DNA of 64,000 nucleotides, taken from Bartonella taylorii 8TBB (GTDB lineage: Bacteria; Pseudomonadota; Alphaproteobacteria; Rhizobiales; Rhizobiaceae). The notes below the pieces were generated by a model. It was not told the origin of the DNA. It was given only the letters and a program-made list of their open reading frames with translations, and made no database searches. Made by a program: the position numbers and the translations under genes. The stretch lies in NCBI RefSeq assembly GCF_902825155.1, contig NZ_CADEAG010000002.1, forward strand, positions 1-64,000. Direction: 5' to 3'. Every line of letters begins with the position of its first letter. Positions within the stretch are counted from its first letter, which is position 1. Of this stretch, positions 8,702-44,874 are shown in pieces.

Positions 8702-9009
8702 AGTGGATCTCCAATGAAAGGTAGTTTAATCTTTTCTAGGGAATATTATTTGCTCAACTCATGAAAGGCAAAAATACGCGATACTTATATTTCTAGCTAT
8801 ACTTATCTTTTTCAAAGATACAAATATGAAATTATCTTTCTGAAGGATATTCGTGTACTATTCAAGGCGGTGTGGCAAAAAAGGCACAATTTTTGTTTTG
8901 TTAACTTTTTATCCTCTTGGGGGTCACTAAAAAGGAAAAACTTTAGATATTTTTGAAAAAAATCGAAAATGTCTTGAAGTTTCTGTTGATACCATTTATG
9001 CACGTCCTT
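8702..9009. other. Porin upstream region
   Basis: Only the porin leader and an AT-rich stretch are visible before the tRNA gene. It should contain the minus-strand porin promoter, but I cannot mark boxes with confidence. Confidence 0.4.
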
Positions 9010-9100
9010 GGAGAGGTGGCCGAGTGGTCGAAGGCGCTCCCCTGCTAAGGGAGTAGGGCTCAAAAGGCTCTCGAGAGTTCGAATCTCTTCCTCTCCGCCA
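9010..9100 (+). tRNA. tRNA-Ser (GCT anticodon)
   Basis: The sequence folds as a class II tRNA with acceptor GGAGAGG pairing to CCTCTCC, a long variable arm and the TTCGAAT loop. The anticodon loop CTGCTAA gives GCT, reading AGC/AGT serine codons. The CCA end is encoded. Confidence 0.95.
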
Positions 9101-9965
9101 TTCATCAATAAAATCAAGGGTTCATAAATAAGGCTAGGCATTTTTAGTGCTTTGATTTATTTTTTCCTATCCCGACATTTTTGTAGTCTTTTTGCTTCGA
9201 GAGTGTATCTCTTGCGGTTTGCAGTTTTTACTGTGTAGCGATGCTCTGTTTGTTGTTAAAAGATATTTTTTTACGCTCTAAAATTGGATTATCTTCTAAA
9301 AGCTCCTTGTCAATTGTTCATTTAAAAAACATTGCATGCTTTCAGAAAATTTTGAGTAGCTACAGAAAGTTTCTTTGTATTATTGAATTGTTGTATGAAC
9401 TGTTTTTGGGTAGTTTTATGTGAAGTGTCAAAATTCGAGGTTTTCATTAAAATGGGTTTTGGGAGCATTAGAATGAGTTTTAGAGATGTTGCACAGTTTT
9501 TTGCTACGATGTTACTCAGTTTGAGCAATCATGCAGGCTAAACCTTAATAAGGTTACCTAAATCTTGGGGGATGATATCTTTGTAATTTTAAAAGCACAA
9601 TTTTGTCGTTTTTAATAGACGTTCGCAGTTCATAAACTTTTTGTATCCTATGCTGTGGTTTGTGTTCTTTACGCACAATTACTATACAACTTTACCGCCT
9701 TGAGTGTTTTGTTATCACAAGATAAGAAGAGATTGAGTGTGGCTTGATTTATATGCTGATGCCAAAGTTATCATCATATCGTTTTATAAACCTATTAATG
9801 TGTTTGGATGTGTTGTTGTTTCAGGTACTTCGATTCCGGTGAGCAATAATAGCTTTATGATGTCTGCGTTGTATTTTGAAATGTTTCGATGTGCAGAAGG
9901 TCAAAAAAGCATAAGATATATTTCAAAAGAAAACATTTGGAGATGGTAATTGTATGATTTTCTTC
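9101..9965. other. Non-coding spacer downstream of tRNA-Ser
   Basis: Short open frames on both strands here are AT-rich, lack ribosome sites and resemble nothing I know. The stretch lies between a tRNA gene and the broken exporter and may hold further debris of that operon, but none is recognisable. Confidence 0.45.
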
Positions 9966-11185
9966 TCATATAGATTTGCGAGAGAGCGTCATCCATCTCA
10001 TGATAAACAAACCACACATGAAAAAAGTCACGGTTGGTAATATAAGATAATAAGAAGGTGACACTTTTGCAGGAAGAAGAGAGATAACGCTTAACACGGC
10101 GATTGAAAATATTCTTCCGCTGAAGGATACAGCGCCAACAACACCGGAAATATGCTGAGTTTGTTTTTGGGTAAGCTCTGAAAAAACAAACTTTTTGCGC
10201 CTATCGGTACAGTGCAAATGAAACTATGAATTAACGAAAATGCGATGATTGATGCAGTGGTTTGATTGCTATGGACGAAAAAATAAAGCGCTATGCACAT
10301 AAGGGCAGAAAAAAAGGAAAAATATTTTACAGAATTCTTATATTTTTTATCAAAGACGTGATACTTAGACATCAGTAAATTGGAAAAATATTGCGCTGAG
10401 AAGGCTCCGATATGGCAGCACATTAATATTAACATCTGTGAGCCGTTGAGGTGATTGATTTTTCCCCCTGAGAGTATTATCGGCTGCCAGAAGTGATAGA
10501 TAATCTGAATACCAGCGCTGAAAAGGCACATCAGAAAAACAAACCATGCTCCTCCCACGGTGTTTTGAAATATCCAGAGCGTTTCTTTAGCATTTTGTAG
10601 GATGGTTTTTGTTTTTGTCCCTTCACTTTTTGATTTCGTCTCTTCAGGAACAATAAGAAATACAAAGAGAAGTACCCCCATCATCAGGCACGAGATGATA
10701 TATCCCATGAAATATTGCTGCGAGTAATATATCGTTGCAATTCCTACGATACCACTCATAACGCTTCCGAAGGAATTTACTTGGTGAGAAAGATGCGCAT
10801 AATGCGAAAAGAGATCCTGTTTGTTGCCTAGAGAATGGTAAATCCATCCGTCAATGGCGCTGACAATAAGACAAATTCCTGCTGCATAGAAGATCTGTGA
10901 AATGATAAGTGCTGTCATATTGGGGGCTTGAAGGCAGAGAATATAAAACAATCCAGTCATGAAAACTCCAGCTGTGACCGAGTATTTACGCCGATATTTG
11001 TCAGCAAAAACAGCACAGGGAAAATCAAGGAGCAAGACGGTTCCCGAAAAGGTGATTTGCAGCAGAGCCAATTGGGATAGGCTAGCACCCATAGACATCA
11101 AAAAAATGGCGTGATAAACACCGATCAACATCCGTACTGCGTGGTAGGATCCATAGGTTACAGCGAGTGTTCGGGGTCTGTTCAT
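9966..11185 (-). pseudogene. Frameshifted MFS exporter, MccC-like
   Basis: A 12-helix MFS exporter is split into two frames. The upstream part starts at the ATG at 11183-11185 (MNRPRTLAVTYGSYHAV), overlapping the preceding gene's TGA as ATGA. It shows the MFS loop motif FADKYRRKYS. Near 10181-10196 a base is missing in a homopolymer run. The natural reading continues from SFICTVPIGA directly into KKFVFSELTQKQTQHISG in the other frame, ending at 9966. As it stands the first frame runs on to 10091 with an unrelated tail. The preceding mccB-like remnant suggests that it exported a microcin C-type peptide nucleotide and gave self-protection. A sequencing slip in the homopolymer is possible. Confidence 0.75.
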
Positions 11186-11930
11186 TGTTTTGTTCCACAG
11201 ACTTTGCAGTGAGGATTCTTTTTTAAGGAACGCTCTTCTGTGAAAAGTTTGCTGCTCCATATCCCTACACGGCGATTAGTGGAAAGTAGATCACCATAAC
11301 CACCCAAAAATTTAAGAGCATCATTGGCGCACATTGAGGCTGAAAGAGCATTTACGGGGGAAAAGGTTGCAACTTTAAAGTTATTATTGATAGCAGCACA
11401 AGCTTTATAGATTAAGTGGTCACTTTTTGGGGGGAGATTTCCTATGGATGAGCTGCATGCGTAGCAACCAGTTTGTTCAAGTATGTAAAAAGAGCCAAAA
11501 CATCTATATCATTGACATAGCCGGAATTTATATAAGCTTGTTTTTTTGTATATACCATTCATTTATCTGTGGTACTAGTTAATCAAGTATATCAGCAGAA
11601 GTGATCCATAAATCAGCTTTGGGTAATTTGTTGATATTTTCTTTTTCAGTAATTAACATTTGTAATTCATGAACTTCTTTTTGCTGTTTCTTTGTATCAG
11701 TTCACGTTGAAGAATAGTTGTTTTAAGAAATCCACTATCTTGTTCAATAAAGAGAATAGGTTGGCTATATCGACTCATTGTGCGGTGAGAAGTACCAAAT
11801 TCTTCCAGTAGTTTCGATCATTGATAACAAACTACTTCGCAATTTTATCCAAAAATTGTATTACTTTCTTAGGCGGGAAATACAGGTATATTCCCCCAAA
11901 TATATTGCGGTTCTATCGGCTTCCCCCCTT
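11182..11930 (-). pseudogene. Decayed MccB-like (ThiF/E1-type) peptide adenylyltransferase
   Basis: Reading the minus strand through several frameshifts recovers a ThiF-family enzyme closely resembling E. coli MccB, which attaches AMP to the C-terminal Asn of the microcin C heptapeptide. Recovered blocks in order are EQDSGFLKTTILQRELIQRN, KLPKADLWITSAD, AYINSGYVNDIDV, FGSFYILEQTGCYAC, FKVATFSPVNALSASMC and the end NPHCKVCGTKQ. The E. coli protein has matching blocks (ADIWVVSAD, YINAGYVNDIAVFGPLY, GCYEC, FKPATFAPVN, CSVCGN, from memory). Both zinc CxxC pairs survive (CYAC, CKVC). There are at least three frameshifts, near 11495, 11540 and 11671, and an in-frame stop near 11580. The N-terminal region beyond about 11760 is barely readable. 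The gene overlaps the exporter start by four bases, the mccB-mccC order. Confidence 0.8.
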
Positions 11931-12313
11931 AATTTCTATGTTTTTATTATTCGCCATGTGTGTGACAGAGGCAGGTTATGTCGAAACGGCATTATTGTAA
12001 ATACATTTTTATGATAGAGGATGCATATTTCTATAAAAATAGTAATGAGGGCAAGCTTTAGATAAGTCAGCTTTAGTATGTAAGTATATTGACAACCAAT
12101 GATTGCTTCTTAGGTACATATTGATAGACAGTTGTTAATCGTTTTGATTGAATTTTTTACGATAAGAAAGCTATTGTATGCCAGTAATAGACTAACAGAG
12201 GTGGCTAAAAAATGGGGTATATCTGTGCATTTTTATTTTCTATAGAAATTGGCAACTTTCTTTACCTTAAAAAGATATACAAAATCGATAAGGAAATGTA
12301 ACATAAATACATT
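11931..12313. other. Upstream region of the decayed mccB-like gene
   Basis: If the operon was complete, the short precursor-peptide gene would lie here on the minus strand. One small frame (MANNKNIEIKGGSR, about 11904-11948) is present, but it is not preceded by a clear ribosome site and does not end in Asn. I do not call it the precursor. Nothing else is recognisable. Confidence 0.35.
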
Positions 12314-12398
12314 TGGTGCCCAAAAGAGGACTCGAACCTCCACGCCTTGCGGCACAGGTACCTGAAACCTGCGCGTCTACCAATTCCGCCATCTGGGC
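12314..12398 (-). tRNA. tRNA-Leu (CAG anticodon)
   Basis: The minus strand reads GCCCAGA at the acceptor, with a class II variable arm and GGTTCGAGTCC T-arm, ending in an encoded CCA. The loop TTCAGGT gives anticodon CAG for CTG codons. Confidence 0.95.
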
Positions 12399-12509
12399 TT
12401 AAGATTCATCTAAGCTTGTGAAACAGCTCTGTCAATAAAATTATAAAATTTGTTTTTCAGCTCAAAATTATTGAGTTAAACTCCTTATGTCCACTACGAT
12501 TTTAGAAAT

Positions 12510-13130
12510 TTAAGGTGTGATGATTGTCTTTGATAAAATTGTTGAGTCAGAATTAAATGTATAAATAATAGGAATACCGGTTGCTAATTCTTGAGAGATA
12601 ATTTCCTCACCATTTAAACCTTCAAGTGCCATAATAAGAGCACGAAGAGTGTTACCGTGTGCTGCGACCAAAACAGTTTTAGAGCGCAAAATATGCGGTT
12701 GGATATGGTAAAGATAGTAAGGCCAAACGCGTGCACCAGTATCGCGTAGACTTTCTCCATTAGGGGGAGGAATCGTATAAGAGCGGCGCCATATTTGCAC
12801 TTGCTCCTCTCCCCATTGGTGACGGACCTCATCTTTATTCAGACCAGCAAGATCACCATAATTTCGCTCATTCAATGCTGGATTTTTTATCAATTGCAAA
12901 TCAGATTGTTCCATCTGCTCTAAAATGTGTTGCGCCGTTTTTTGCGCGCGCTGTAAGGCAGATGTATAAGCAATATCAAATTTTAAACCAGCTTCTTTAA
13001 GTTTCTTCCCTGCAGCTATTGCTTCAGCATGACCTTTTTTTGTCAAATCGGGATCTTTCCAACCGGTAAAAAGGTTTTTGAGATTCCATTCACTTTGTCC
13101 GTGACGGATAAGTACAAGTGTGCGTCCCAT
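12510..13130 (-). CDS. gpmA: 2,3-bisphosphoglycerate-dependent phosphoglycerate mutase
   Basis: GpmA interconverts 3- and 2-phosphoglycerate in glycolysis and gluconeogenesis. The 206-residue protein has the phosphohistidine motif [10 protein letters not shown] (H10), the [13 protein letters not shown] segment, [11 protein letters not shown] with the conserved glutamate, and the second histidine in [10 protein letters not shown]. The length matches the shorter alphaproteobacterial form. It lies 28 bases after dapB on the same strand, an arrangement common in this order, and the two probably share a transcript. Confidence 0.95.
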
Positions 13131-13158
13131 TATGAATTTCCTACATTACATTGACTGT

Positions 13159-13971
13159 TTAAAATTCATCGTTCAATCCCAAAACGTCAAGCATTGAATA
13201 AAGACCATTTTCGTGGTTCTTTGCCCATAAAGCTGCTTTTAATGCACCATTGGCAAAAATAGAGCGTTCTTGCGCTGCGTGTGAAAAAACGATACGCTCA
13301 TTTTGGCCGGCAAAAGTGACACTATGGTCGCCAACAACCGTTCCACCCCGTGAACAGGCAAAGCCTATTGTGCCTTTTTTGCGTTTACCTATATGGCCAC
13401 TGCGTTCACTTACACTCACATTTTTAAGCATAATATCACGACCTTCTGCTGCTGCTTGCCCAAGAAGAAGAGCTGTTCCTGAAGGGGCATCAACTTTGCT
13501 AGCGTGATGCATTTCGTAAATTTCAATATCAAAATCATCAGGTTCTAATGCTTTGGCAGCTCTCTTTACAAAGTTCGCTAACAAATTTATCCCAAGGCTC
13601 ATATTGCCGGATTTGACAATAGTTGTATATTTCGCAAAATCTGCAATTTTTTCTTCTTCTGTTTTACTAAATCCCGTTGTGCCAATAATATGGGCAAGAC
13701 CTTTTTGAGCAGCATAGTTGGCGTAGAGAATACTGGCTTGTGGCTGTGAAAAATCTAAAATACCTTCAGTATGAGAAAAAGCATTTTCAGGATCATCCGT
13801 GATCTGAATGCCAAGAGGGTTTGAACCAATCAATGTGCCGGCATCTTTGTTTACAAAAGGTGATCCTTTGCGCACAAGCACAGCACAAAGCTCTATATCT
13901 TTTCTATCTTGGATAGCTGTAATGAGCTCGCGCCCCATTTTTCCATTAGCACCAACAACTGTAAGGCGCAT
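13159..13971 (-). CDS. dapB: 4-hydroxy-tetrahydrodipicolinate reductase
   Basis: DapB reduces hydroxytetrahydrodipicolinate with NAD(P)H in the lysine and diaminopimelate pathway, supplying both amino acid and cell-wall precursor. The 270 residues include the Rossmann loop [11 protein letters not shown] near the N-terminus, [17 protein letters not shown], and the signature [16 protein letters not shown] with catalytic histidine and lysine. Full length and intact. An AGGAG-type site (minus strand of TTCTCCTT) precedes the start. It is the first gene of a pair with gpmA. Confidence 0.95.
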
Positions 13972-32373: not shown

Positions 32374-34005
32374 ATGAACTTGAAAAGAAAAATATTGAAG
32401 GGTAGCAGCTCTTTTGTTTCTGCTGTTATTGCTTTGGGGATACTTGTGCAACAAGTTGCAGCAAAAACACCTGCCGATACCCTCGTGATGGCTTTGAATC
32501 TCGATTCAATCGAGACTTTTGATCCTGCGCAAATCAATGAACGTTATGGCAATGAAATTGTTGCCAATATTTGTGATAATTTAATCGATTCTGCTACAGA
32601 TGATCCAGCTAAAATAGCGCCTTCTTTGGCAAAGAGTTGGGATGTTTCAAATGAGGGTGGGGGTACGGTAATTACTTTTCATTTGCGCGATGGTTTGAAG
32701 TTTAATGATGGTCGGCCTGCTGGTGCTCATGATCTTGTTTGGGGTATGAGGCGGATTGTTAAATTGAAGTTGTCTGCAGCAGCAGTATTTAACGAATATG
32801 GAATTACAGAACAAAATGTTGATTCTACTCTTCAAGCACCGGATGAAAAAACCGTAGTGATGAAATTTGATAAACCTTATCCAGCAGAGATAATCCTTGG
32901 ACATATTCTTACTACTCGTGTTGCTGCTTTGCTTGATCGTGAGACAATTATGAAACACGAACAAGATGGTGATATGGGCAATCGCTATTTGGCAAGTCAT
33001 GCTGCTTGTGTTGGTCCTTATCAATTAGTGAGCTGGCGTTCTGGAGAAGCAATTTTGTTGCGTGCAAGTTCCAATTATTGGGGAGAGGCAGTAAAATTGA
33101 AGCAGATTTTAATTCGTCATATTGCAGAACCTGGAACACAACGTTTATTGTTGCAAAAACACGATATCGATGTTGCACGTAATTTGATGCCAGAGGATAT
33201 GGTAGATCTTCAAGCAACAACAGATATTAAGATTGAAAAAGTGTTGGCGCCATCTGTGATAATGTGGGGATTTAATATGACAAATCCCATTTTTGCCAAT
33301 GAAAAGGTGCGTTTGGCGATGCGCTATCTTATCGATTATGACACTCTTGGAAAGACTCTTCTTAAAGATGTTGGTATTCCACGGGCAAGCTTTATTCCCA
33401 TTGGTAATCTTGGGGCTTTGGATGAAAAAGAAGGGCAGCCTTTTAAACTTGATCTAAAAAAAGCCAAGCAGCTTTTAACGGAAGCAGGTTATCCGAATGG
33501 TTTTGAGGCCAATATTTTTGCAGGAAAATCTCCTTATCCTTTTGCTTTGCCTATTGCTCAGTCTATCCAGGACAATGCAAAAAAAATAGGTGTGCGCTTT
33601 AAGATTGAACATTTTGTAGGGACGCAGTTGTTTTCAAAACTTTATGCACGAGGTTTTGATACAATTTTTATGGGATGGAATAACGATTCTGCAGATCCTT
33701 ATACAATGGCTTCACGTCTTGTTTATAATCCTGATAATCGATTTGAGGCTAAAAACACAGGCTATCCTAGTTGGTGCCATGGCTATTTTGATGAAGATAT
33801 GAATAAGAAGGTAAGGGATGCCCTGTTTCAAAAAGATCCACAGAAACGGGCACAAATGTATGCTGATTTGCAGCGTGATTTTATGCAAAAAGGACCCTAT
33901 GCTTTTATCTATCAGACATATAGTATTATCGCTATGACACCTGATGTAAAAAAATGGGTGTGGAATAGTGCACCACGTATTTTTTATAATGCCATTGAAA
34001 AATAA
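32374..34005 (+). CDS. Dipeptide-type ABC transporter substrate-binding protein, copy 1
   Basis: A 543-residue periplasmic binding protein of the SBP_bac_5 family (DppA/OppA type). The signal peptide spans about 1-30 (ending QQVAA before KTPADT). Family features include TFHLRDGLKFNDGRPAGAHD, the ACVGPYQLVSWRSGEA segment and a C-terminal PYAFIYQTYS. An AAAAGGAAAAG ribosome site precedes the ATG and is shared by copies 2 and 3. The permease genes lie 11 kb away, so this copy would feed the single DppBCDF engine. In other bacteria this class also imports heme and murein peptides. The ligand here is not known. Confidence 0.9.
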   Translation: MNLKRKILKGSSSFVSAVIALGILVQQVAAKTPADTLVMALNLDSIETFDPAQINERYGNEIVANICDNLIDSATDDPAKIAPSLAKSWDVSNEGGGTVITFHLRDGLKFNDGRPAGAHDLVWGMRRIVKLKLSAAAVFNEYGITEQNVDSTLQAPDEKTVVMKFDKPYPAEIILGHILTTRVAALLDRETIMKHEQDGDMGNRYLASHAACVGPYQLVSWRSGEAILLRASSNYWGEAVKLKQILIRHIAEPGTQRLLLQKHDIDVARNLMPEDMVDLQATTDIKIEKVLAPSVIMWGFNMTNPIFANEKVRLAMRYLIDYDTLGKTLLKDVGIPRASFIPIGNLGALDEKEGQPFKLDLKKAKQLLTEAGYPNGFEANIFAGKSPYPFALPIAQSIQDNAKKIGVRFKIEHFVGTQLFSKLYARGFDTIFMGWNNDSADPYTMASRLVYNPDNRFEAKNTGYPSWCHGYFDEDMNKKVRDALFQKDPQKRAQMYADLQRDFMQKGPYAFIYQTYSIIAMTPDVKKWVWNSAPRIFYNAIEK

Positions 34006-34237
34006 GTATGTCTTAAATGTTGTAACATATAAAAATACTATCATGATATCTTCGATGTTTTGTATAGCGTTTAAAAGTTTAGCAAAATATCGAAGTTTAT
34101 TGGTAAATTGTATTGGTATATTCTCTATAGAGTAACTTCAAGACACCCTTCTTTAGAGAGGGGCTATGCATTTTTATAAAATGCATGTACACATAGATAT
34201 TAAGATTGGAGATTTTAATCTTAAGTAAACTAAAAAA

Positions 34238-34912
34238 ATAATAAATTTGTTTGTTAAAGAAACGAGCACACTGAATATAAGCAGAATTTAGTATTTTTTA
34301 GAAAAAGCGGGGGACCTTAGAATGTACTGTTGAGAAAAAATTTGGTTGTATGTAGGTGAATTTGGGGAGTATGAGGTTATTGTGGAGCTGATGCTTCAAA
34401 TTGCACTGCCTTTCCTTAAAAATGATGAGATACTGGGGACTGTCCTTGGTGTGGGTTCATGGAAATGCTCAAATTGCCTTGTTAGGAAGGAGATGAGTGT
34501 CCATGGTTAGCAACTGTGCTTATGAGGATCATCAAAATATCAAAGGATGATTGAGGTTTTTAAACCAACCGAGGTTGGTGCTCTGAGGATTCTTTTTAGA
34601 AAGTCGCAAAAAGAGATTTGAAGCAGAAGTCTTGTTTGATGAGATAAAGAAGAAGTTTTTGCCTTATATGCCCTGAATTTAGGTGTTGTGGCATCATCAA
34701 CAGGTAGCTATCATGGCTGATATCACTCATTGGATATTAGAGCATTTTCCGTTACATCTTTTGTTTTGGCCTAACCTGTTCAGAGGGAACGAATGGTTGG
34801 AAGGTAGCTGCTGCTTTTGAAGATTTTGAATGTTACTTCTAAGAGGCATGGTTTCTAAGCCTGATCTTATTACTTTTGCCTGTCGTTGTTGCATGGGGAA
34901 TTTATAGAATAA
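34238..34912 (+). pseudogene. Decayed 5' fragment of xseA, copy 2
   Basis: This is the second copy of the xseA debris, 2552 bases after the first. It shares with copy 1 changes that the intact gene lacks, for example GGTAGCTATCATGGCTGAT in place of GGCGCTGTTATTCGTGAT, and the same end junction. Stops in all frames rule out function. Confidence 0.8.
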
Positions 34913-34931
34913 GCTTTAAAAGGAAAAGCCT

Positions 34932-36563
34932 ATGAACTTGAAAAGAAAAATATTGAAGGGTAGTAGCTCTTTTGTTTCTGCTCTTATTTCCATGGGGATG
35001 TTTGTGCAACAAGTTGCAGCAAAAACGCCTGCCGATACTCTCGTGATGGCTTGGAATCTCGATGCAATAAGTACATTTGATCCTGCACAACTCAATGACC
35101 GTTATGGAACTGAAATTGTTGTCAATGTTTGTGATAATTTAGTTGAATCTGCTAAAGATGATGCAACTAAAATGGTTCCTTCTTTGGCAAAGAGTTGGGA
35201 TGTTTTAAGTGATGATCAGAGCACGGTAATTACTTTTCATTTGCGTGATGGTTTAAAGTTTAATGATGGTCGTCCTGCTGGTGCTCATGATCTTGTTTGG
35301 GGTATGAGGCGGGTTGTTAAACTGAAGATGTCTAATGCTCCTACATTTAATGAATATGGTATCACAGAACAAAATGTTGATGAGGCTTTTCAAGCACCGG
35401 ATGAAAAAACCGTAGTGATGAAATTTGATAAGCCTTATCCAGCAGAGCTTATTCTTAGCAATATTTCTACTAATCGTACTGTTGCTTTATTGGATCGTGA
35501 GACACTCATAAAACACGAACAAGATGGTGATATGGGAAACCGGTATTTGGCCAGCCATTCTGCTTGTGTTGGTCCCTATCAGATAAGTAGCTGGCGTCCT
35601 GGAGAAGCTCTTTTGTTGCATGCAAGCTCCAATTATTGGGGGGATGCGCCTAAATTGAAGAAGATTTTAATTCGCCATGTCGCGGAGCCTGGAACACAAC
35701 GTTTATTGTTGCAAAAACACGATATCGATGTCGCCCGTAATTTGATGCCAGAGGATATAGCAGATCTTCAAGCAACAACAGATATTAAAGTTGAAAGAGT
35801 GTTGGCGCCTTCCATGATCATATGGGGCTTTAATGCGACAAATTCTATTTTTGCCAATGAAAAGGTGCGTTTGGCGATGCGCTATCTTATTGATTATGAA
35901 GGACTTGGTAAGACCCTTCTTAAAGATGTTGGTGTTCCACGTGCAAGTTTTATTCCTCTTGGTAATTTTGGAGCTTTGGATGAAAAAGAAGGACAACCCT
36001 TTAAACTTGATCTTCAAAAGGCAAAGCAGCTTTTAACGGAAGCAGGTTATCCGAATGGTTTTGAGGCCAATATTTTTGCAGGTGCATCTCCTTATCCTTT
36101 TGCTTTGCCTATTGCTCAGTCCCTTCAAGACAATGCAAAAAAAATTGGCGTGCGTTTTAAAATTGAACGTTTTGTAGGTACGCAGTTGTTTTCAAAATTT
36201 TATGCACGGGGTTTTGATACGATTTTTTTCGGATGGAATAATGGCTCTGGTGATCCCCATACAATGGCTTCACGTCTTATTTACAATCCTGATAATCGGT
36301 ATGAGGCAAAAAATACAGGCTATGCTAGTTGGTGCCATGGGTATTTTGATAAAACTATGAATCAAAAGGTTCAGGATGCGTTGTTTGAAAAAGATCCACA
36401 AAAACGGGCGCAAATGTATGCTGATTTGCAGCGTGAATTTATGCAAAAAGGGCCTTATGCTTTTATCTATCAGACATATAATATTGTTGCTATGACACCT
36501 AATGTCAAAAAATGGGTTTGGAATAGTGCACCACATATTTTTTATAGTGCAATTGAAAAATAA
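34932..36563 (+). CDS. Dipeptide-type ABC transporter substrate-binding protein, copy 2
   Basis: Same length (543 residues) and architecture as copy 1, with long identical stretches and scattered substitutions through both lobes. The signal peptide again ends QQVAA. Differences concentrate in surface and possible ligand regions, for example MSNAPTFNEYG against LSAAAVFNEYG, and FFGWNNGSGDP against FMGWNNDSADP. The leader and ribosome site are those of copy 1. It is the second member of the tandem duplication and may have drifted in ligand choice. Confidence 0.9.
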   Translation: MNLKRKILKGSSSFVSALISMGMFVQQVAAKTPADTLVMAWNLDAISTFDPAQLNDRYGTEIVVNVCDNLVESAKDDATKMVPSLAKSWDVLSDDQSTVITFHLRDGLKFNDGRPAGAHDLVWGMRRVVKLKMSNAPTFNEYGITEQNVDEAFQAPDEKTVVMKFDKPYPAELILSNISTNRTVALLDRETLIKHEQDGDMGNRYLASHSACVGPYQISSWRPGEALLLHASSNYWGDAPKLKKILIRHVAEPGTQRLLLQKHDIDVARNLMPEDIADLQATTDIKVERVLAPSMIIWGFNATNSIFANEKVRLAMRYLIDYEGLGKTLLKDVGVPRASFIPLGNFGALDEKEGQPFKLDLQKAKQLLTEAGYPNGFEANIFAGASPYPFALPIAQSLQDNAKKIGVRFKIERFVGTQLFSKFYARGFDTIFFGWNNGSGDPHTMASRLIYNPDNRYEAKNTGYASWCHGYFDKTMNQKVQDALFEKDPQKRAQMYADLQREFMQKGPYAFIYQTYNIVAMTPNVKKWVWNSAPHIFYSAIEK

Positions 36564-36777
36564 AAGAGTATTAAGTTTATAAAATACGAAAAAGTATGAT
36601 TACGATATATTTAACGTATTGCAAAGCGTTGAATTTTATAGGTGATATGTCTCTATGTTTTATAGAGAATTTCATTTCAAAACATTCTCTTTTAGGAAAA
36701 GATTTTATTCTCATTAAAGATGTATTTGTGTGGATGCTAAGATTTAATATTTTAACTGTCGTTGATGCAATTTTATG

Positions 36778-36971
36778 AGATAGAATAATGGTAGTGTGGA
36801 TTTCCATACAATGGCTTTAGGTGTTATTTATAACTCTCATAATCGGTTTGAGGCTAAGAATATAGGTATCTGAATTGGTGCTAATGGGTATTTAGATAAA
36901 AATATAAATCAAAAGGTTAAAGATGCAGTGTTGCAAAAAGATTCACAGAAACGGGTGTAAAGAATTGAAAA
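36778..36971 (+). pseudogene. 3' fragment of a decayed dppA copy abutting xseA
   Basis: The DNA matches the dppA 3' region: CCATACAATGGCTT, then CATAATCGGTTTGAGGCTAAG, then AATCAAAAGGTTAAAGATGC and CACAGAAACGGG. Stops interrupt it. An internal deletion joins it to AATTGAAAAATGG, which is the last dppA codons running straight into the ATG of intact xseA. So xseA follows a dppA scar with no spacer. Confidence 0.75.
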
Positions 36972-38402
36972 ATGGTAAGTTTATTTGGTGAAAAAATAGG
37001 TGTAACGAATGTAGCAGAATTTACTGTTTCCGAAATAGCAGGGGCTTTAAAGCGCGTTGTTGAAGAGAAATTTGGTTATGTGCGGGTGCGGGGAGAGATA
37101 TCAGGTTATCGCGGGGCTCATGCTTCCGGTCATGCTTACTTTGCCTTAAAAGATGATAAGGCACGGTTGGAAGCGGTTATTTGGCGTGGCATTATGGAAA
37201 AGCTCAAATTTCCTCCCGAAGAAGGGATGGAAGTGATCGCTGTCGGCAAACTGACAACTTACCCGGGGTCATCAAAATATCAAATTGTCATTGAGGCGCT
37301 TGAGCCAACAGGGGTTGGCGCTTTGATGACACTTCTAGAAAAGCGCAAGAAAAAGCTTGCAGATGAAGGTTTATTTGATGAATCCAAGAAAAAACCTTTG
37401 CCTTATATGCCGCGAATTATAGGTGTTGTGACATCACCTACAGGCGCTGTTATTCGTGATATTATTCATCGTGTATCAGATCGTTTTCCATTGCATATTT
37501 TGGTTTGGCCCGTCCGTGTTCAGGGGGAAACAAGTGGTCAGGAAGTGGCTGCTGCTGTTGAAGGTTTTAATGCTCTTCCTTTAGGAGGGCTTGTTCCAAA
37601 ACCTGATCTTATTATTGTTGCACGGGGAGGAGGAAGTTTAGAAGATTTATGGGGATTTAATGACGAAGCTGTTGTTCGTGCTGTTTATGAGTCAGCTCTT
37701 CCGGTTATCTCTGCTGTTGGGCATGAAACAGATTGGACTTTGATTGATTATGTTGCTGATTGGCGCGCTCCAACTCCCACAGGAGCGGCAGAAAAGGCTG
37801 TTCCTGTTAAGCTTGATCTCGAAGTGTATGTTGCGTCTCTTGGTGCCCGTTTACGCAAGGGATTGGTGCGTTATTTTGATTTTCATCAACAAAAATTGCG
37901 TGCTATTATAAGAGGGCTTCCGACTGTCGATCAACTTTTCGCTCTACCACGGCGTGGTTTTGATGAAATTTCAAGTCGATTGCTGCGTGCTCTTCATGTG
38001 AGCTGCGATAAAAAACATTTTTCTTTTCATGCGCTTGCTATACGTTTTTCACCGCGTTTACTGAATACTGAAAAAGCGAAACGTAATACAAAGGAGTATA
38101 CTGCGCGCCTTCATCGTGCTTTTGTGCACAATGTGGAAAAACAACGTGCTCAGGTAGAGGTCGCGTTTAGGCTTTTAAAAAGCACTTCGTATCAAAATAT
38201 TTTAGAGCGTGGTTTTGTTTTGGCTTTGGGGCAGGATAATAAGCCCATTAAACGGTTGGTGCAGTTTCCTGAAACGGGGCAAATCAGTTTACGTTTTTTT
38301 GATGGTGATGTTAGTGTTTCAACGCATGATCATGCTCTCAACCGATCTTCAAAATCTAAACGGATCAAATCGAAGCAAGATGATCAAGGAACGCTCTTTT
38401 AA
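36972..38402 (+). CDS. xseA: Exodeoxyribonuclease VII large subunit
   Basis: XseA with XseB degrades single-stranded DNA. The 476 residues begin with the OB-fold domain ([42 protein letters not shown]). The catalytic core follows, with [60 protein letters not shown] and [13 protein letters not shown] coiled-coil region and C-terminal ERGFVLALG complete it. The ribosome site before the ATG is weak because the gene abuts a dppA scar. It overlaps or nearly abuts tag. It is the intact source of the two upstream fragments. Confidence 0.95.
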
Positions 38403-38436
38403 TACAATAAATGTGGTGCTCGATGAAGGGCTTCTT

Positions 38437-39006
38437 ATGGGGGCAGATGGAAAAGTTCGTTGTTCATGGGCAGGAACGGATCCACTTTATTGTGCTTATC
38501 ATGATAATGAATGGGGAAAACCTGTTTTTGAAGATCGCCATTTGTTTGAGAAAATTTGTCTTGAAGGTTTTCAGGCAGGGCTTTCTTGGCTCACAATTTT
38601 AAAAAAAATCCCTTCTTTTCGAAATGCGTTTGATCATTTTGATTTTGAAAAAATTATGCATTATGATGAAGTAAAAGTGCAAATGTTGATGCAGAATAAA
38701 GGTATTGTTCGCCATCAAGGAAAAGTTCGATCGGTGCTTAATAATGCATTGAGAGCGCAGGAAATTATAACAGAGTGGGGGAGTTTGTCTCGCTATTTTT
38801 GGTCGTTTCAACCACCACAATCAGAGCGTTATAAAAAAATAGATTTTCAAACACTGTTGGCTAATCCCATAACCCCTGCTTCTCTTCGCCTTTCTAAGGA
38901 TTTGAAAAAACGTGGTTGGACATTTGTTGGTCCTACAATTTGTTATGCTTTTATGCAGTCTGTTGGGATTGTCAATGATCATCTTGAAGGGTGTTTTTGT
39001 CGATAA
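38437..39006 (+). CDS. tag: DNA-3-methyladenine glycosylase I
   Basis: Tag removes 3-methyladenine from alkylated DNA. I choose the ATG at 38437 (MGADGKVRCSWAG) because AAGGG lies just upstream and the resulting 189 residues match the family (about 187 in E. coli). Longer in-frame starts would overlap xseA. Zinc-site residues are present: C9, H22 in AYHDNEWG and the terminal NDHLEGCFCR. Helix-hairpin motif region FQAGLSWLTILKK is intact. Confidence 0.93.
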   Translation: MGADGKVRCSWAGTDPLYCAYHDNEWGKPVFEDRHLFEKICLEGFQAGLSWLTILKKIPSFRNAFDHFDFEKIMHYDEVKVQMLMQNKGIVRHQGKVRSVLNNALRAQEIITEWGSLSRYFWSFQPPQSERYKKIDFQTLLANPITPASLRLSKDLKKRGWTFVGPTICYAFMQSVGIVNDHLEGCFCR

Positions 39007-39159
39007 CTGTGCAAAGCAGCTGTAAGAGATATTGTTTAGTCAAGTAATAAAAGAACAGAGAATGGTTTTTCAAGTTTTTACTTTTTTAAAGCATTATGAA
39101 AGCAATTTATATTATTGATTTTGAATAAATATGTGTCTGTTCTATTTGTATAGATAGCG

Positions 39160-39830
39160 GTTACCATAATGACGGATATTCTATTTATGGTTGTTGATGA
39201 AGACAAAGTGGTTTTCGAGTTTTTCGGCGTGGCACTCTTATCGTATTGTTCTTTTTTTGAAATTTAATGAAATATATTTGTTAAATTTTTGGTTGAATAT
39301 ATGATGATTGCTCTACTTGTATGGTAGCTGATTACCAAGTGCTTGTGTTACGTTTTATTATCTGGTAGCTTCCTTGTTGAGAGAGTAATTTTGCTGCGTG
39401 TGAGCTCCAGTTTTTGGGGAGGAGGCTTAAGCTCAGACGGGTTTGTATCCACTACATTGCTTAGTTAAATCTCTGAGATTTTCCGTTAGAAGCAAGAGTT
39501 TCTGCGGTGTGTTGTTTGGTATCTATTTTTGTGGTTTCAAAATAATGATGAACGTAGAAATTGGGGGGAGTTTATGGTCAATCATGTTTTTTCGGGTTAG
39601 GTATCGTGAATTTTGCTTTTACCAATGAAAAAGTGCCTTTTATTGTGGATTTTTATTGGTAATGATCTTTTTGGAAAAATACCGTTTAGAGGGGTTAGTA
39701 TTTCTCATTATTATTTTATCTCTGTTGGCTTTTTTGGTATTATCGATAAATGAGAAAGATTTTCTTTTGCACTTTACTTTCAAAAAGTTAAGCGATTTTT
39801 TATGGAGTGCAGAGTTTTAGCGGAGATGTT
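39160..39830 (+). pseudogene. Heavily decayed dppA copy (central part)
   Basis: No open frame survives, but the DNA still follows the dppA sequence in order. GCTTGTGTTACGTTTTATTA matches GCTTGTGTTGGTCCTTATCA. CTCCAGTTTTTGGGGAGGAG matches the YWGEA region. TTTACCAATGAAAAAGTGCC matches the FANEKVR codons. TTTTTATTGGTAATGATCTT and TTCAAAAAGTTAAGC match later parts. The left edge is uncertain. It shows that the binding-protein family was once larger here. Confidence 0.65.
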
Positions 39831-40095
39831 TTTTTGTGTTTTGCTGCTTTATTCGGTTTGGAAACAGATATGGCTTAATGGGGAGTGCAAGGAGGTATTG
39901 GGATGTGGATGTAGTGCTGGTTGGAGGAATATATGTTGTGTATCTACTATAGTTTAAGTAAAACGAAATTCATATTAAAAGTAAATATCTCTTTATAATA
40001 TAGTCAATATGTATTTATTCAATTTTTGTTGTATAAAATTGCTGTGTTATTTAAGAATAATTAATTGATATAATAAACTTTAAAAGGAAAAGTCT

Positions 40096-41721
40096 ATGAA
40101 TGTAAAAAGAAAGATATTGAAAGGCAGTACTTCTTTTATTTCTGCTCTTATGGCTATGGGGATGTTTGTGCAACAAGTTTCAGCAAAAACACCTGCCGAT
40201 ACGCTTGTGATGGCTTGGAATCTCGATGCAATAAGTACATTTGATCCCGCGCAGCTTAACGACGTTTATGCAGCTGAAATTTTTGACAATGTTTGTGATA
40301 GTTTAGTCAGTACTGCTGGAGATGATTTAGCAAAAATAGTTCCCTCTTTGGCAACACATTGGGATGTTTCAGGTGATGACCAGAGTACAGCGCTTACTTT
40401 TCATTTGCGCGATAATTTAAAGTTTAATGATGGTCGTCCTGCTAACGCTCATGATCTTATTTGGAGCATGAAGCGGGTTGTCAAATTGAAATTGGCTACG
40501 GCGACGGCATTTAATGAATATGGTATCACAGAACAAAACTTTGATTCTGCTATTCACGCACCGGATGAGAAAACGGTGGTGATGAAATTTGATAAGCCTT
40601 ATCCAGCAGAGCTTATTCTTAGCAATATTGTTGCAAGTCGTGCTACTGCTTTGCTTGATCGTGAAACAATTATGAAACACGAGAAAAATGGTGATATGGG
40701 AAACCAATATTTGGCCAGCCATGCTGCTTGTGTTGGTCCTTATCAAATAAGTAGCTGGCGTCCTGGAGAAGCTCTTTTATTGCGTAAAACCTCCAATTAT
40801 TGGGGAGAGGCACCTAAATTGAAGAAGGTTTTAATTCGCCATGTCTCGGAACCTGGAACGCAACGTTTATTGTTACAAAAACACGATATCGATGTTGCAC
40901 GTGATTTAATACCTGAGGATGTAGCAGATCTCCAAGCAAAAACGGATATTAAAGTTGAAAGGGTGTTGGAGCCCTCCATGATGTTTTGGGGCTTTAATAC
41001 GACAAATCCAATTTTTGCCAATGAAAAAGTGCGTTTGGCGATGCGCTATCTTATTGATTATGAAGGTCTTGGAAAAACAGTTCTCAAAGGTGTTGGTATT
41101 CCACGTGCGAGCTTTATTCCTCTTGGTAATGTTGGAGCTTTGGATGAAAAAGAAGGACAACCCTTTAAACTTGATCTTCAAAAAGCAAAACAGCTTTTAA
41201 CGGAGGCAGGTTATTCAAAAGGCTTTAAGGCTAATTTTTTAGTGGGCAGTTCTCATTATGCTTTGCCTATTGCTCAGTCTTTGCAAGATAATGCAAAAAA
41301 GGTGGGAGTACATCTTAAAGTTGAACGTTTGGCAGGTACGCAGTTATTTTCAAAAGTTTATGCACGTGCTTTTGATACAGTTTTCATGGGATGGAATAAT
41401 GACTCTGCTGATCCTTATTCAATGGCTTCACGCCTTGTTTACAACCCTGATAATCGGTTTGAAGCGAAAAATACAGCCTATCCAAGTTGGCAGCATGGGT
41501 ACTTGGATGAAGCTATGAATAAAAAGGTGGAAGATGTGTTGTTTCAAAAAGATCCACAGAAACGAATAGAAATATATGCTGACTTGCAGCGTGAACTTAT
41601 GCAAAAAGGGCCTTATGCTTTTATCTTTCAGAAATATAGTGTTGTCGCTATGACACCTGATATTAAAAAATGGGTTTGGAATAGTGCACCACGTATTTTT
41701 TATAGTGCAATTGAAAAATAA
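40096..41721 (+). CDS. Dipeptide-type ABC transporter substrate-binding protein, copy 3
   Basis: A 541-residue SBP_bac_5 protein closely related to copies 1 and 2, with the same leader (ACTTTAAAAGGAAAAG) and signal peptide (ending QQVSA). It differs from both by a two-residue gap near GSSHYALP, where copies 1 and 2 have a PYPFALP segment, and by many substitutions. Those changes lie in the second lobe, which lines the ligand cleft in this family. A terminator-like hairpin follows 62 bases after the stop. Confidence 0.9.
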   Translation: MNVKRKILKGSTSFISALMAMGMFVQQVSAKTPADTLVMAWNLDAISTFDPAQLNDVYAAEIFDNVCDSLVSTAGDDLAKIVPSLATHWDVSGDDQSTALTFHLRDNLKFNDGRPANAHDLIWSMKRVVKLKLATATAFNEYGITEQNFDSAIHAPDEKTVVMKFDKPYPAELILSNIVASRATALLDRETIMKHEKNGDMGNQYLASHAACVGPYQISSWRPGEALLLRKTSNYWGEAPKLKKVLIRHVSEPGTQRLLLQKHDIDVARDLIPEDVADLQAKTDIKVERVLEPSMMFWGFNTTNPIFANEKVRLAMRYLIDYEGLGKTVLKGVGIPRASFIPLGNVGALDEKEGQPFKLDLQKAKQLLTEAGYSKGFKANFLVGSSHYALPIAQSLQDNAKKVGVHLKVERLAGTQLFSKVYARAFDTVFMGWNNDSADPYSMASRLVYNPDNRFEAKNTAYPSWQHGYLDEAMNKKVEDVLFQKDPQKRIEIYADLQRELMQKGPYAFIFQKYSVVAMTPDIKKWVWNSAPRIFYSAIEK

Positions 41722-41782
41722 ACGCGTATTAAGTGTTGTGAAATACAAAAGAACGTGATCATAACGTAAATGATAAAAATAT

Positions 41783-41834
41783 CCCTCCGCAAGAGTTTTT
41801 TTAAGCTTAGGGTATGAAATGCGGGGGGCTTTTT
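41783..41834 (+). terminator. Probable terminator or attenuator after dppA copy 3
   Basis: CCCTCCGCA (41783-41791) pairs with TGCGGGGGG (41820-41828) across a 28-base loop, and a CTTTTT tail follows. It separates copy 3 from the copy 4-dppBCDF unit and could keep binding-protein expression above that of the permease. The long loop lowers confidence. Confidence 0.55.
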
Positions 41835-41849
41835 ACGGTATGCTTAATG

Positions 41850-42035
41850 CTATTTATAGGAACAGTGGCATTGATAAGTATAGGAAGTGATCTTTTTGAG
41901 CTTTCTGTTTACCGTGGTACAGATGGTATGGATTTCGGGTATAGGTTAGTATGTGTGTGACTTGTCTTTGGATGGTTTATCAGTAAAGTTAATGATGCTA
42001 TGCTGTGGAGAGATGAAAAAGGGACATCGAAGTAT
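41850..42035 (+). pseudogene. Possible decayed dppA 3' fragment
   Basis: Sequence such as AGTGATCTTTTTGAGCTTTC and AAAGTTAATGATGCTATGCT loosely follows the dppA 3' region in order, like the clearer fragment at 36778. The match is weak and by eye only. The rest of the gap up to copy 4 shows only an AAAGGA ribosome site. Confidence 0.35.
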
Positions 42036-42079
42036 TTTATGTGAGAAAGATAACATAAAATGCAAAGGATAATGCTAAA

Positions 42080-43696
42080 ATGAAAAAAAAAGGAATGTCA
42101 AAAAACTTTTGTATTTTATTAAGCACAATCGGCTTTTTAAATGGGTTTATACCATCAGTATTCAGTGCGTCATCTAAAGATACCTTGGTAATGGCATGGA
42201 ATATTGATTCAATTAGTAGCTTTGATCCAGCTCAAACGGTTGAGGTTGTTGCGAGTGAATTATTGACGAATATTTGCAGTGCGTTAGTACAATATGATAA
42301 GCATGATCCCACAAAAATTCGTCCTGCTATGGCTCAATCTTGGGATGTTTTAGACAACGGGAAAAGAATCGTTTTTCATCTTCGTGATGACTTAAAATTT
42401 GATGATGGAAGAAGAGCGACAGCGCAAGATCTCGCGTGGTCAATGCAACGTATTATTAAGTTAGGGTTGAGTTATGCTCAATCTTTAATGGATTATGGGT
42501 TCACTAAAAACAATGTTGAAACAAATATTCAAGCTCTTGATGATAAAACTTTACAACTAAAGTTGGATAAGCCTTATCCCATCCAACTTATACTGACGGT
42601 AATTGGACAGTCTTATGCTTCTGCTTTGCTTGATCGGCAAACAATTGAAGCAGAGAGTGTTGATGGGGATATGGGTAATAAATATTTGACTACGCATTCG
42701 GCTTGTGTTGGACCTTATAAATTGGTACGCTGGAGTTCTGGAGAAAAAGTTATTTTACAAGCGACCCAACATTATTGGGGGGGCGTCCCCAAAGTTAAGC
42801 AAATTGTTATACAACATGTTGCTGAATCAGCGAGTCAGAGACTTCTTTTGGAAAAAGGTGATGTGGATATAGCGCGTGATCTTTCTTCAGAAGATGTTTT
42901 AGATATTGAAAGACAGGGGGGGGCTGTTAAAATTAGACGTGTTTTGCGACCGCAAATTATTTATTTATCGCTAAACAACAAAAATGCAATTTTTGCTCAT
43001 GAAAAAGTGAGATTGGCCTTTCGCTATTTGATTGATTACCAAGGTCTTGGAAACACTGTTTTAAAGGGCATTGCAATTCCACGTGCGAGTTATATGTCAT
43101 TGGGGATTCCTGGTGCTTTGGATGAAAAAGAGGGGGTGCCTTTTAAGTTAGATTTAGAAAAAGCAAAACAGTTGATCCGTGAGGCTGGCTATCCTAATGG
43201 TTTTAAGGCTAACCTTTTAGTTGGCAGCCTTAGTTATATGTCATCTGTTGCGCAGTCTATTCAAGCTAATGCGCATAAAATTGGTGTTGAGCTCACAATT
43301 GAGAAAATGGCGCAAAATCAGTTATTAAGCCGCGTGCGTGGTGGGAACTATGATACTGCTATCATGGGGTGGGGGAGTGCTGATCCTGATGGACATCCTG
43401 CTTCGTTAAATCATGTGTTTAATCCTGATCCAACATTTACAAAAAAACACAATATGTATTTGGCTTGGCGTGCTGGGTATTATGATGAAAATATCAATAA
43501 AATGGTGATGGATGCTTTGTTTGAACAAGATCAAAATAAGCGTATTTCGCAGTATCGTGCTCTACAGCATTATGTGTTTGAGCATGGTCCTATGGTCTAT
43601 TTATTTCAGACATATTATACCGTTGGTATGGGACCGGCAATAAAAAAATGGGTTTGGAATAGTTTTAGACTTTACTACAATGATGCAGAAAAATAG
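42080..43696 (+). CDS. Dipeptide-type ABC transporter substrate-binding protein, divergent copy 4
   Basis: A 538-residue SBP_bac_5 protein in the same family but clearly divergent from copies 1-3. The signal peptide spans about 1-30 (ending SVFSA). Shared core segments include DTLVMAWN, SACVGPYKLVRWSSGE and GALDEKEGVPFKLDLEKAKQL. The C-terminus changes to HGPMVYLFQTYYTVGMG. It precedes dppB by 101 bases and is probably the transporter's original partner, with copies 1-3 a later expanded group. Confidence 0.9.
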   Translation: MKKKGMSKNFCILLSTIGFLNGFIPSVFSASSKDTLVMAWNIDSISSFDPAQTVEVVASELLTNICSALVQYDKHDPTKIRPAMAQSWDVLDNGKRIVFHLRDDLKFDDGRRATAQDLAWSMQRIIKLGLSYAQSLMDYGFTKNNVETNIQALDDKTLQLKLDKPYPIQLILTVIGQSYASALLDRQTIEAESVDGDMGNKYLTTHSACVGPYKLVRWSSGEKVILQATQHYWGGVPKVKQIVIQHVAESASQRLLLEKGDVDIARDLSSEDVLDIERQGGAVKIRRVLRPQIIYLSLNNKNAIFAHEKVRLAFRYLIDYQGLGNTVLKGIAIPRASYMSLGIPGALDEKEGVPFKLDLEKAKQLIREAGYPNGFKANLLVGSLSYMSSVAQSIQANAHKIGVELTIEKMAQNQLLSRVRGGNYDTAIMGWGSADPDGHPASLNHVFNPDPTFTKKHNMYLAWRAGYYDENINKMVMDALFEQDQNKRISQYRALQHYVFEHGPMVYLFQTYYTVGMGPAIKKWVWNSFRLYYNDAEK

Positions 43697-43797
43697 AGCA
43701 TGTTATGAAGAAGAGCGGTGAGCGTGCTTGATGAGGCTTTTCTTTACTATATAAGAAGGTGTTAGCTTTATGTTTGGTAGCTATGGAGGGGGATATT

Positions 43798-44874
43798 ATG
43801 ATGGTTTTGCCATTTTCAGAATCTGAAAGAGCAGTATCACAAAAGCAGAAAAAAATGTTCGTATGGGACTTTTCTTTCAAGGTACTGAAGTTGCTGATTT
43901 CAGTTTTTTTCACGCTGCTTGGTTTGGTGACGATCACTTTTTTTATTGGTCATCTGCTTCCTTTAGATCCCGTTCTTGCTATTCTTGGTGATAATATCAG
44001 TCAGGAGGCTTATGATGCAATGTTTCATAGGTTGGGTCTTGATAAGCCGTTGATTATCCAGTATTGGAACTATCTTCGCAATATATTTTTGTTTGACTTT
44101 GGAGATGCTTTAACTTCAGGGCGTCCTGTCTTGGAAGATATTATGCGCGTGTTTCCAGCAACATTAGAGCTTGCTACAGTTGCTATCGTGATTGGTACGA
44201 GTCTTGGTATTCCATTTGGTGTTTTTGCGGCAATGTATCGCGATTCATTTATTGATTACTTTGTCCGGACTTTTACTCTCTTGAGCTATTCCACTCCAAC
44301 CTTTTGGCTTGGATTAATGGCGTTATTAATCTTTTACGCCAAGCTTGGTTGGATTGGTGGTCCAGGACGTATTGATTTTATTTATGAATATTCTTTTGAA
44401 CCCAAAACAGGATTTTTTCTCTGGGATACTGCTCGTCAGGGACAGTGGGAAGCTTTTGGAAATGCCTTTGGTCATATTGTTATGCCTGCTTTAATCTTAG
44501 CTTTCGGTGCTATGGCTTATATTAGTCGTATGACTCGTGGTTTTATGATTGAACAACTTAATCAGGAATATATCATTACTGCGCGTGTAAAGGGATTATC
44601 GTTGACACGAACGGTTTGGGGGCATGCTTTTCGTAATGCTGCGGTTCAGATTATCACTGTTGTTGCACTTTCTTACGCTTTTTTATTAGAAGGTGCTGTG
44701 TTAACGGAGACAGTTTTTGCTTGGCCTGGTTTTGGGCATTACTTGACGAATGCTCTTTTAGCTGGAGATATGAATGCAGTTGTCGGATGTACACTGCTTG
44801 TAGGGTTTCTCTTTGTTGTTATTAATTTATTTTCTGATTTGCTTTATCGAATCTTTGATCCAAGGACACGTTGA
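43798..44874 (+). CDS. dppB: Dipeptide-type ABC transporter permease, DppB
   Basis: This inner-membrane permease has about six helices. I start at the ATG at 43798 because GGAGGGGG lies five bases upstream. A second ATG follows at once. The 358-residue product has the N-terminal TITFFIGHLLPLDPV typical of the DppB/OppB family, RVFPATLELATVAIVIG, and the EAA-type loop YIITARVKGLSLTRTVWGHA, which contacts the ATPases. Residues about 190-225 form a longer periplasmic loop. It overlaps dppC by four bases. Confidence 0.93.
   Translation: MMVLPFSESERAVSQKQKKMFVWDFSFKVLKLLISVFFTLLGLVTITFFIGHLLPLDPVLAILGDNISQEAYDAMFHRLGLDKPLIIQYWNYLRNIFLFDFGDALTSGRPVLEDIMRVFPATLELATVAIVIGTSLGIPFGVFAAMYRDSFIDYFVRTFTLLSYSTPTFWLGLMALLIFYAKLGWIGGPGRIDFIYEYSFEPKTGFFLWDTARQGQWEAFGNAFGHIVMPALILAFGAMAYISRMTRGFMIEQLNQEYIITARVKGLSLTRTVWGHAFRNAAVQIITVVALSYAFLLEGAVLTETVFAWPGFGHYLTNALLAGDMNAVVGCTLLVGFLFVVINLFSDLLYRIFDPRTR

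Follow-up and report, generated by a model that had tools for sequence, protein, structure and literature searches.

Between the genes for a tRNA-Ser and a tRNA-Leu, the minus strand of the window (the whole stretch of 64,000 nucleotides that was analysed) holds two degraded genes, one for a ThiF-fold enzyme and one for an MFS exporter. The locus raises the question of whether these are what is left of a microcin C operon, which of its parts have been lost, and whether the part that survives best still has a use. Microcin C is a small antibiotic aimed at rival bacteria and a model Trojan-horse compound, known mainly from enterobacteria. In an intact operon, ribosomal synthesis would yield a formyl-heptapeptide, MDHxxxN, to whose C-terminal Asn MccB would add a nucleotide, and MccC would pump the product out; a target cell would import and trim this product, leading to a block of its aspartyl-tRNA synthetase. 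This chemistry is predicted for the intact operons by homology, as in E. coli. The operon in the window would not run, because it has no precursor and no ATP-binding motif in its enzyme. Overall, we conclude with a probability of about 0.93 that the window locus descends from a three-gene microcin C operon, mccA–mccB–mccC, and is now a decayed remnant of it.

The earlier note mentioned MccB-like clusters predicted from Bartonella genomes, and these are indeed in print: microcin operons of Bartonella and their inactivation have already been published. The earlier literature names B. quintana and B. henselae for such loci, citing Severinov 2007; PMC10949449 relays a statement on Bartonella from Bantysh 2014, and minimal A-B-C clusters are described in PMC12250964 and PMC6495379. 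In UniRef, a B. henselae member is already named MccB. What the Bartonella loci offer is many operons at different stages of decay within one genus, so that the order in which an antibiotic system collapses can be read from sequence.

Layout of the locus

The features of the locus are collected in Table 1. A scan of positions 8900–13200 with Rfam returned nothing beyond the two tRNAs. The tRNA-Ser(GCT) gene also adjoins the locus in B. taylorii (L009), DB5-6 (L001), B. elizabethae (L003), B. massiliensis (L007) and others. As the earlier note had described, the MFS exporter occupies the MccC position, and the stop codon of mccB and the start codon of mccC share an ATGA at 11182–11185 on the minus strand.

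Table 1. Features of the mcc locus, in window positions
Feature	Position	Strand	Remarks
tRNA-Leu(CAG)	12314..12398	-	Upstream edge of the locus
Purine run GGGGGGAAG, Shine-Dalgarno-like	11920..11928	-	Occurs once at this locus
Diverged tract	11531..11930	-	Most of the mccB remnant; many window-only substitutions
mccB remnant	11182..11919	-	Three frames; about 109 codons lost inside (junction near 11767, GCGGIG included), plus stops
Open C-terminal MccB fragment	11182..11334	-	50 residues, MCANDALKFLGG...CKVCGTKQ
ORF with MccC exporter	10091..11260	-	389 residues; start most likely ATG at 11185; frame lost within residues 331–342 of 406
C-terminal part of the exporter	9966..10217	-	Other frame, overlapping ORF; 99.1% DNA identity to B. 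taylorii over 221 bases
tRNA-Ser(GCT)	9010..9100	+	Downstream edge of the locus

Intact operons for comparison

The B. taylorii operon (L009) is whole, with a precursor MDHMGCN, a covarying hairpin, MccB and MccC. It lies in the same place as the window locus, next to tRNA-Ser and near YidC, whereas the intact operon of B. washoeensis (L002) has another location: no tRNA occurs in 21 kb, and YidC is on a different contig. In both, precursor, hairpin and enzyme are whole, unlike in the window. The B. taylorii enzyme is 46–47% identical to the plasmid-borne MccB of E. coli, and its exporter and E. coli MccC share 45% identity at 98% coverage. The nearest named relatives outside Bartonella are all gammaproteobacterial: for MccB they are proteins of Brenneria salicis (68%) and Pectobacterium odoriferum (67%), and for the exporter proteins of Brenneria salicis (72%) and Yersinia pseudotuberculosis (68%).

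In the E. coli microcin C operon (plasmid of ATCC 25922, NZ_CP009074.1), MRTGNAN stands directly before mccB as the counterpart of the Bartonella precursor, and the ends of the MccB and MFS exporter genes overlap, as they do in Bartonella. Set against this operon, the window copy is without mccA and without a working mccB. The E. coli operon further adjoins genes for a methyltransferase, a GNAT acetyltransferase and an S66 peptidase, which we take to be mccD, mccE and mccF; at four Bartonella loci (L001, L002, L005 and L024), none of the three was seen among the ORFs of at least 150 residues next to the operon, which encode a cytochrome c, a housekeeping ThiF, a glutathione synthetase and a porin. 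A search of 71 Bartonella genomes for the S66 family, to which MccF belongs, gave no match in any of them, with the control found in 6 of 14. MccD, MccE and MccF had been listed as missing parts of the window operon; since none of them was seen beside the operons of four relatives and S66 was found in none of the 71 genomes, they are probably not parts that the operon has lost.

Loss of the precursor gene and hairpin

In intact relatives, a precursor gene of seven codons lies about 80–100 bases upstream of the mccB start. It encodes MDHMGCN in B. taylorii, MDHIGFN in DB5-6, B. washoeensis and G001, and MDHIFCN, MDHLECN, MDHRGFN or MDHSECN in others. Among the nine loci with a whole or nearly whole mccB, eight have a precursor of the form MDHxxxN and one has MDYRNYNA. 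The latter belongs to a B. henselae-like genome (G023, L029) in which MccB and the exporter are both open; its precursor does not end in Asn, and this change may be a route by which production was lost there. In operons with a broken mccB, the precursor has often drifted, as in MDHTECNE (G021), MDHTGCNE (G031), MDHPKFK (G039) and MDHPEFH (G024).

Between precursor and mccB lies a hairpin of 13 pairs. Of the 15 genomes in which a precursor-like ORF was present, 13 (all but G024 and G039) were used to align it. In the alignment, 93% of cells are paired and six of the 13 pairs have changed on both sides. Among 500 shuffles, 93% pairing was reached by one and six two-sided changes by six; slid versions of the structure gave 30–71% pairing, a control that favours structures taken from one row, as this one was.

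The window has neither element. The absence of the precursor had been remarked upon, and it reflects deletion rather than concealment: at the mccA site, a gap of 98 columns relative to B. taylorii takes in both mccA and the hairpin. No Asn-ending ORF of 5–26 residues was found on the minus strand between 11900 and 12310, and the precursor pattern run over the whole window gave a single match, which had one mismatch and is no more than the 1.09 expected by chance. In B. taylorii, the run GGGGGGAAG is present in two copies, before mccA and before mccB. The edge of the gap lies only a few bases from the single run at the window locus, which suggests that mccA and the hairpin were lost by deletion between two such runs.

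The enzyme remnant derives from mccB

The sequence blocks from which MccB had been recognised (YINSGYVND; TGCYAC, ATFSPVN, CKVCG) all lie on the minus strand, in different frames. When the frames were kept apart, with X at stops, the best one matched E. coli MccB with 105 bits (E 3e-30) and B. taylorii MccB with 231 bits (E 1e-78), and the other two gave separate, weaker matches. Pfam and NCBIfam scans of the 50-residue open fragment returned nothing reliable; the comparison was therefore routed through the intact relatives. A second gap relative to B. taylorii, of 328 columns, accounts for the lost codons and removes the GCGGIG ATP-binding motif (residues 130–135 of B. taylorii MccB), and the rest of the gene is interrupted by stops and changes of frame. 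To call the locus a wreck, as the earlier note did, is apt for mccB and mccA but not for the exporter, which carries one frameshift only.

Two other explanations of these remains have to be weighed. The enzyme might be a decayed housekeeping ThiF or MoeB gene and the exporter an unrelated MFS pump. ThiF-fold enzymes are widespread, and for the intact B. taylorii enzyme all 25 families listed by NCBIfam fell below their cut-offs, with ThiF and MoeB models leading and none named MccB. The bit scores nevertheless separate the families clearly: a housekeeping ThiF-like protein of B. washoeensis reaches at most 14.6 bits with the remnant against 105 for E. coli MccB, and the intact B. taylorii enzyme matches solved MccB with 365 bits, ThiF with 66 and MoeB with 62. 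Gene order, overlap, precursor and hairpin also speak against such an origin, which we regard as scarcely credible; the remnant is not nearer to MoeB or ThiF. It is very improbable, too, that the breakage is an artefact of assembly or sequencing. The source genome is a draft of 236 contigs with 3.34% contamination, and the exporter frameshift falls in a single-nucleotide run, but read errors do not explain the 98-column and 328-column gaps, the several stops or the 13–31% of substituted positions, and YidC and ETF-QO, the two core genes that the window supplied, both have open frames. For the exporter frameshift by itself, a read error is possible, though perhaps still the unlikelier case.

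A diverged tract between B. taylorii-like flanks

On a tree of 41 genomes built from two core genes, the nearest to the source genome is B. taylorii (G065), at 98% identity. The locus does not follow this figure throughout. Identity to B. taylorii is 94.7% upstream, falls to 66.9% in the 5' remnant of mccB and to 82–88% in the middle, and returns to 96.8% at the 3' end of mccB; the two parts of the exporter stand at 97.7% and 99.1%, and the downstream flank at 96.9%. With DB5-6 as the third row, changes found only in the window amount to 31.1% in 11771–11919 and 13.3% in 11467–11766, against 0.9–2.3% elsewhere; the excess spans about 11930 to about 11530. Among the loci compared, none matches this tract better than 85% in its middle part or 74% (148 bases) in its 5' part. 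Since neutral decay within the lineage should resemble the flanks, the dead mccB segment probably either pre-dates the split or is foreign, and the locus is likely to be a mosaic in which dead mccB sequence of old or foreign origin is set between flanks resembling B. taylorii. The proposal that this strain once made the antibiotic and then lost it therefore stands as far as a decayed operon is concerned; most of the damaged enzyme gene, however, is too diverged to be the recent decay of the lineage itself.

The exporter in the window

Over 352 residues, the main piece of the exporter shares 46% identity with E. coli MccC, and over 63 residues the shifted C-terminal piece shares 37%; identity and gene order agree in making it an exporter of the MccC type. 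Its protein is 97% identical to that of B. taylorii over 367 residues, with 18 synonymous and five nonsynonymous differences in 331 codons. On a tree of 35 rows, the window exporter falls in a starred Bartonella set of 17 rows, near proteins of Brenneria, Yersinia and Pectobacterium, and E. coli MccC in a separate starred set of five; the branches are very long and the deeper order is not settled, and for this reason the tree is not taken as proof of a clade.

Operon states across Bartonella

A search of 71 Bartonella genomes for the exporter at E 1e-15 or better gave 38 matches, and 37 genomes with the locus remained after exclusion of G054, which matched only via a distant MFS family. The state of each operon was read from tblastn over the loci together with ORF lists, and for G005, G011, G018 and G020 from match tables alone. 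Exporter and mccB are both open in six of the 37 and both broken in 15, the window included; another 15 combine an open exporter with an mccB that is broken or missing, and in one genome mccB is open and the exporter broken. Open exporters thus total 21 and open MccB genes seven, and the 30 genomes with a broken or absent mccB divide evenly, 15 and 15, between an open and a broken exporter. G036 was scored as a broken mccB on a single early stop, and G026 as a broken exporter on a shift near residue 28 behind which most of the frame is open. States that hang on a single lesion (the window exporter, MccB of G036, the exporter of G009) could be sequencing errors.

With 15 exporter-only genomes against one of the reverse kind, the likely order of loss is synthetase first and pump later. 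A dead mccB also tends to be followed by decay of the exporter, whose state goes with that of mccB on the species tree: among seven independent pairs differing in mccB, the exporter differs in the same direction in 5.1 on average and in the opposite direction in none (median p 0.06). Labels for a broken mccB were not clearly clustered on the exporter tree, 45 of 500 shuffles scoring as low.

In five genomes (G066, G067, G055, G068 and G052), the dead mccB is common to all and old, with 79–89% mutual identity and 66–68% identity to B. taylorii; their exporters differ far less at amino-acid sites. Between G066 and G067, for instance, the mccB wreck differs by 8.7%, and the exporter gives a Ks of 0.094 and a Ka of 0.0065. 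Separately, G051 (contigs C72 and C35) and G053 (C44 and C8) each have a broken copy of the exporter near YidC plus another mcc copy at a different place, which is intact in G051. The pattern looks like loss of the operon followed by its return at a second site.

Selection on orphan exporters

Exporters without a working mccB have a median Ka/Ks of 0.110 (105 pairs), those of producers 0.135 (15 pairs). Over all 210 pairs, the exporter median is 0.115 against 0.090 for two core genes, and the ATGA start context of mccC is kept in 15 of 15 orphans. Orphan exporters are under purifying selection like that on core genes. Recombination could keep exporters fresh and mimic selection, and the window locus is itself likely a mosaic. 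The pump likely has a use independent of whether the cell makes the antibiotic. With the exporter selected after the loss of the antibiotic, whether orphan pumps act as immunity genes becomes a testable question. No title on orphan MccC exporters in Bartonella, or on the pump outliving the antibiotic, was found in the open-licence literature.

The exporter of G025 (L025), a genome in which mccB was not detected, has a Ks to G055 of 0.12, where the core genes give 0.26, and to G017 of 0.30, where they give 0.14. By these figures, the exporter lies nearer to another species group than the core genes do, and a transfer of the pump alone between species is possible.

The import side

YejB is part of the microcin C importer, and mutations in yej lead to resistance, according to the review PMC6795089. 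A search with the E. coli K-12 protein at E 1e-60 detected YejB in 32 of 71 genomes: in four of the 37 with the locus (one of them a fragment with a stop) and in 28 of the 34 without it. YejF agrees in the ten genomes tried, being full-length only in G023, and in the genome of the window neither YejB nor YejF was detected. The complementarity of YejB and the mcc locus may reflect shared descent. With the G011 fragment scored as absent, the tree of 41 genomes shows just two changes of YejB, and the pair test is without power; we therefore make no causal claim. Yej-type transporters in this order also serve peptidoglycan recycling, as stated in PMC9790009, so that there are other reasons for which Yej could be lost.

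As a separate observation, positions 32374–47357 of the window hold four repeated binding-protein ORFs of 543, 543, 541 and 538 residues, of which the first and the last, those tested, are SBP_bac_5, together with a permease-like ORF; stretches within 45799–47357 match YejF at 41–47%. This is an expanded peptide-uptake region in a genome where Yej was not detected.

What the orphan pumps may do

Across Bartonella, we tentatively read the pump as a free-standing element that outlives the antibiotic under core-gene-like selection, with one apparent transfer on its own, and that forms an orphan-immunity or repurposed exporter system; we would put this at somewhat less than even odds. If true, it would provide such a system in nature across a genus of pathogens. 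Of the two uses it embraces, immunity would mean that non-producers keep the exporter to expel microcin C-like peptides made by neighbouring Bartonella, and would thereby survive next to producers. The excess of exporter-only genomes, orphan Ka/Ks values like those of producers and core genes and a search that found no S66 peptidase of the MccF type in 71 genomes fit this use, as does the requirement of an efflux pump for self-immunity to microcin C given in PMC6795089. It is made doubtful by the importer, YejB having gone undetected at E 1e-60 in 33 of the 37 genomes with the locus. Cells without Yej should not import the peptide that way, and where yej mutations are described as conferring resistance (PMC6795089), the simplest immunity story suffers. 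Moreover, MccC reportedly does not export processed microcin (PMC7157772). The exporter may alternatively have been turned to another substrate unrelated to microcin, such as a small peptide, a nucleotide conjugate or a drug, a use that is conceivable although we would not favour it outright. It would account for purifying selection that continues without mccB, in genomes mostly without Yej, and for an exporter in G025 that looks as if it had moved on its own; but the ATGA context is kept in all 15 orphans, the states of exporter and mccB are correlated, and nothing points to another substrate.

Related gene pairs

Two further groups of genes came to light in the searches. One is a second MFS family, about 30% identical to MccC and up to 424 residues long, in several Bartonella genomes (L069–L071, L073–L075 and L079); it stands beside a ThiF-fold ORF in L069 and L070, and the others have no adjacent ORF of this kind of at least 120 residues. 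The other is a third pair (L072, L076, L077 and L078), in which a ThiF-fold enzyme of about 375 residues is followed by an MFS protein of about 380, both whole in L076 and L078. No Asn-ending short ORF was present in the upstream stretch searched, and the best solved match of the L078 enzyme is MccB with 90 bits, against 66 for MoeB. The genome of the window itself carries, at G000:C1:491627-492283 (L038), an open MFS gene of 384 residues that groups with the exporter of the third pair in L078 (starred). No ORF of at least 150 residues precedes it on its strand, and it is perhaps another orphan pump.
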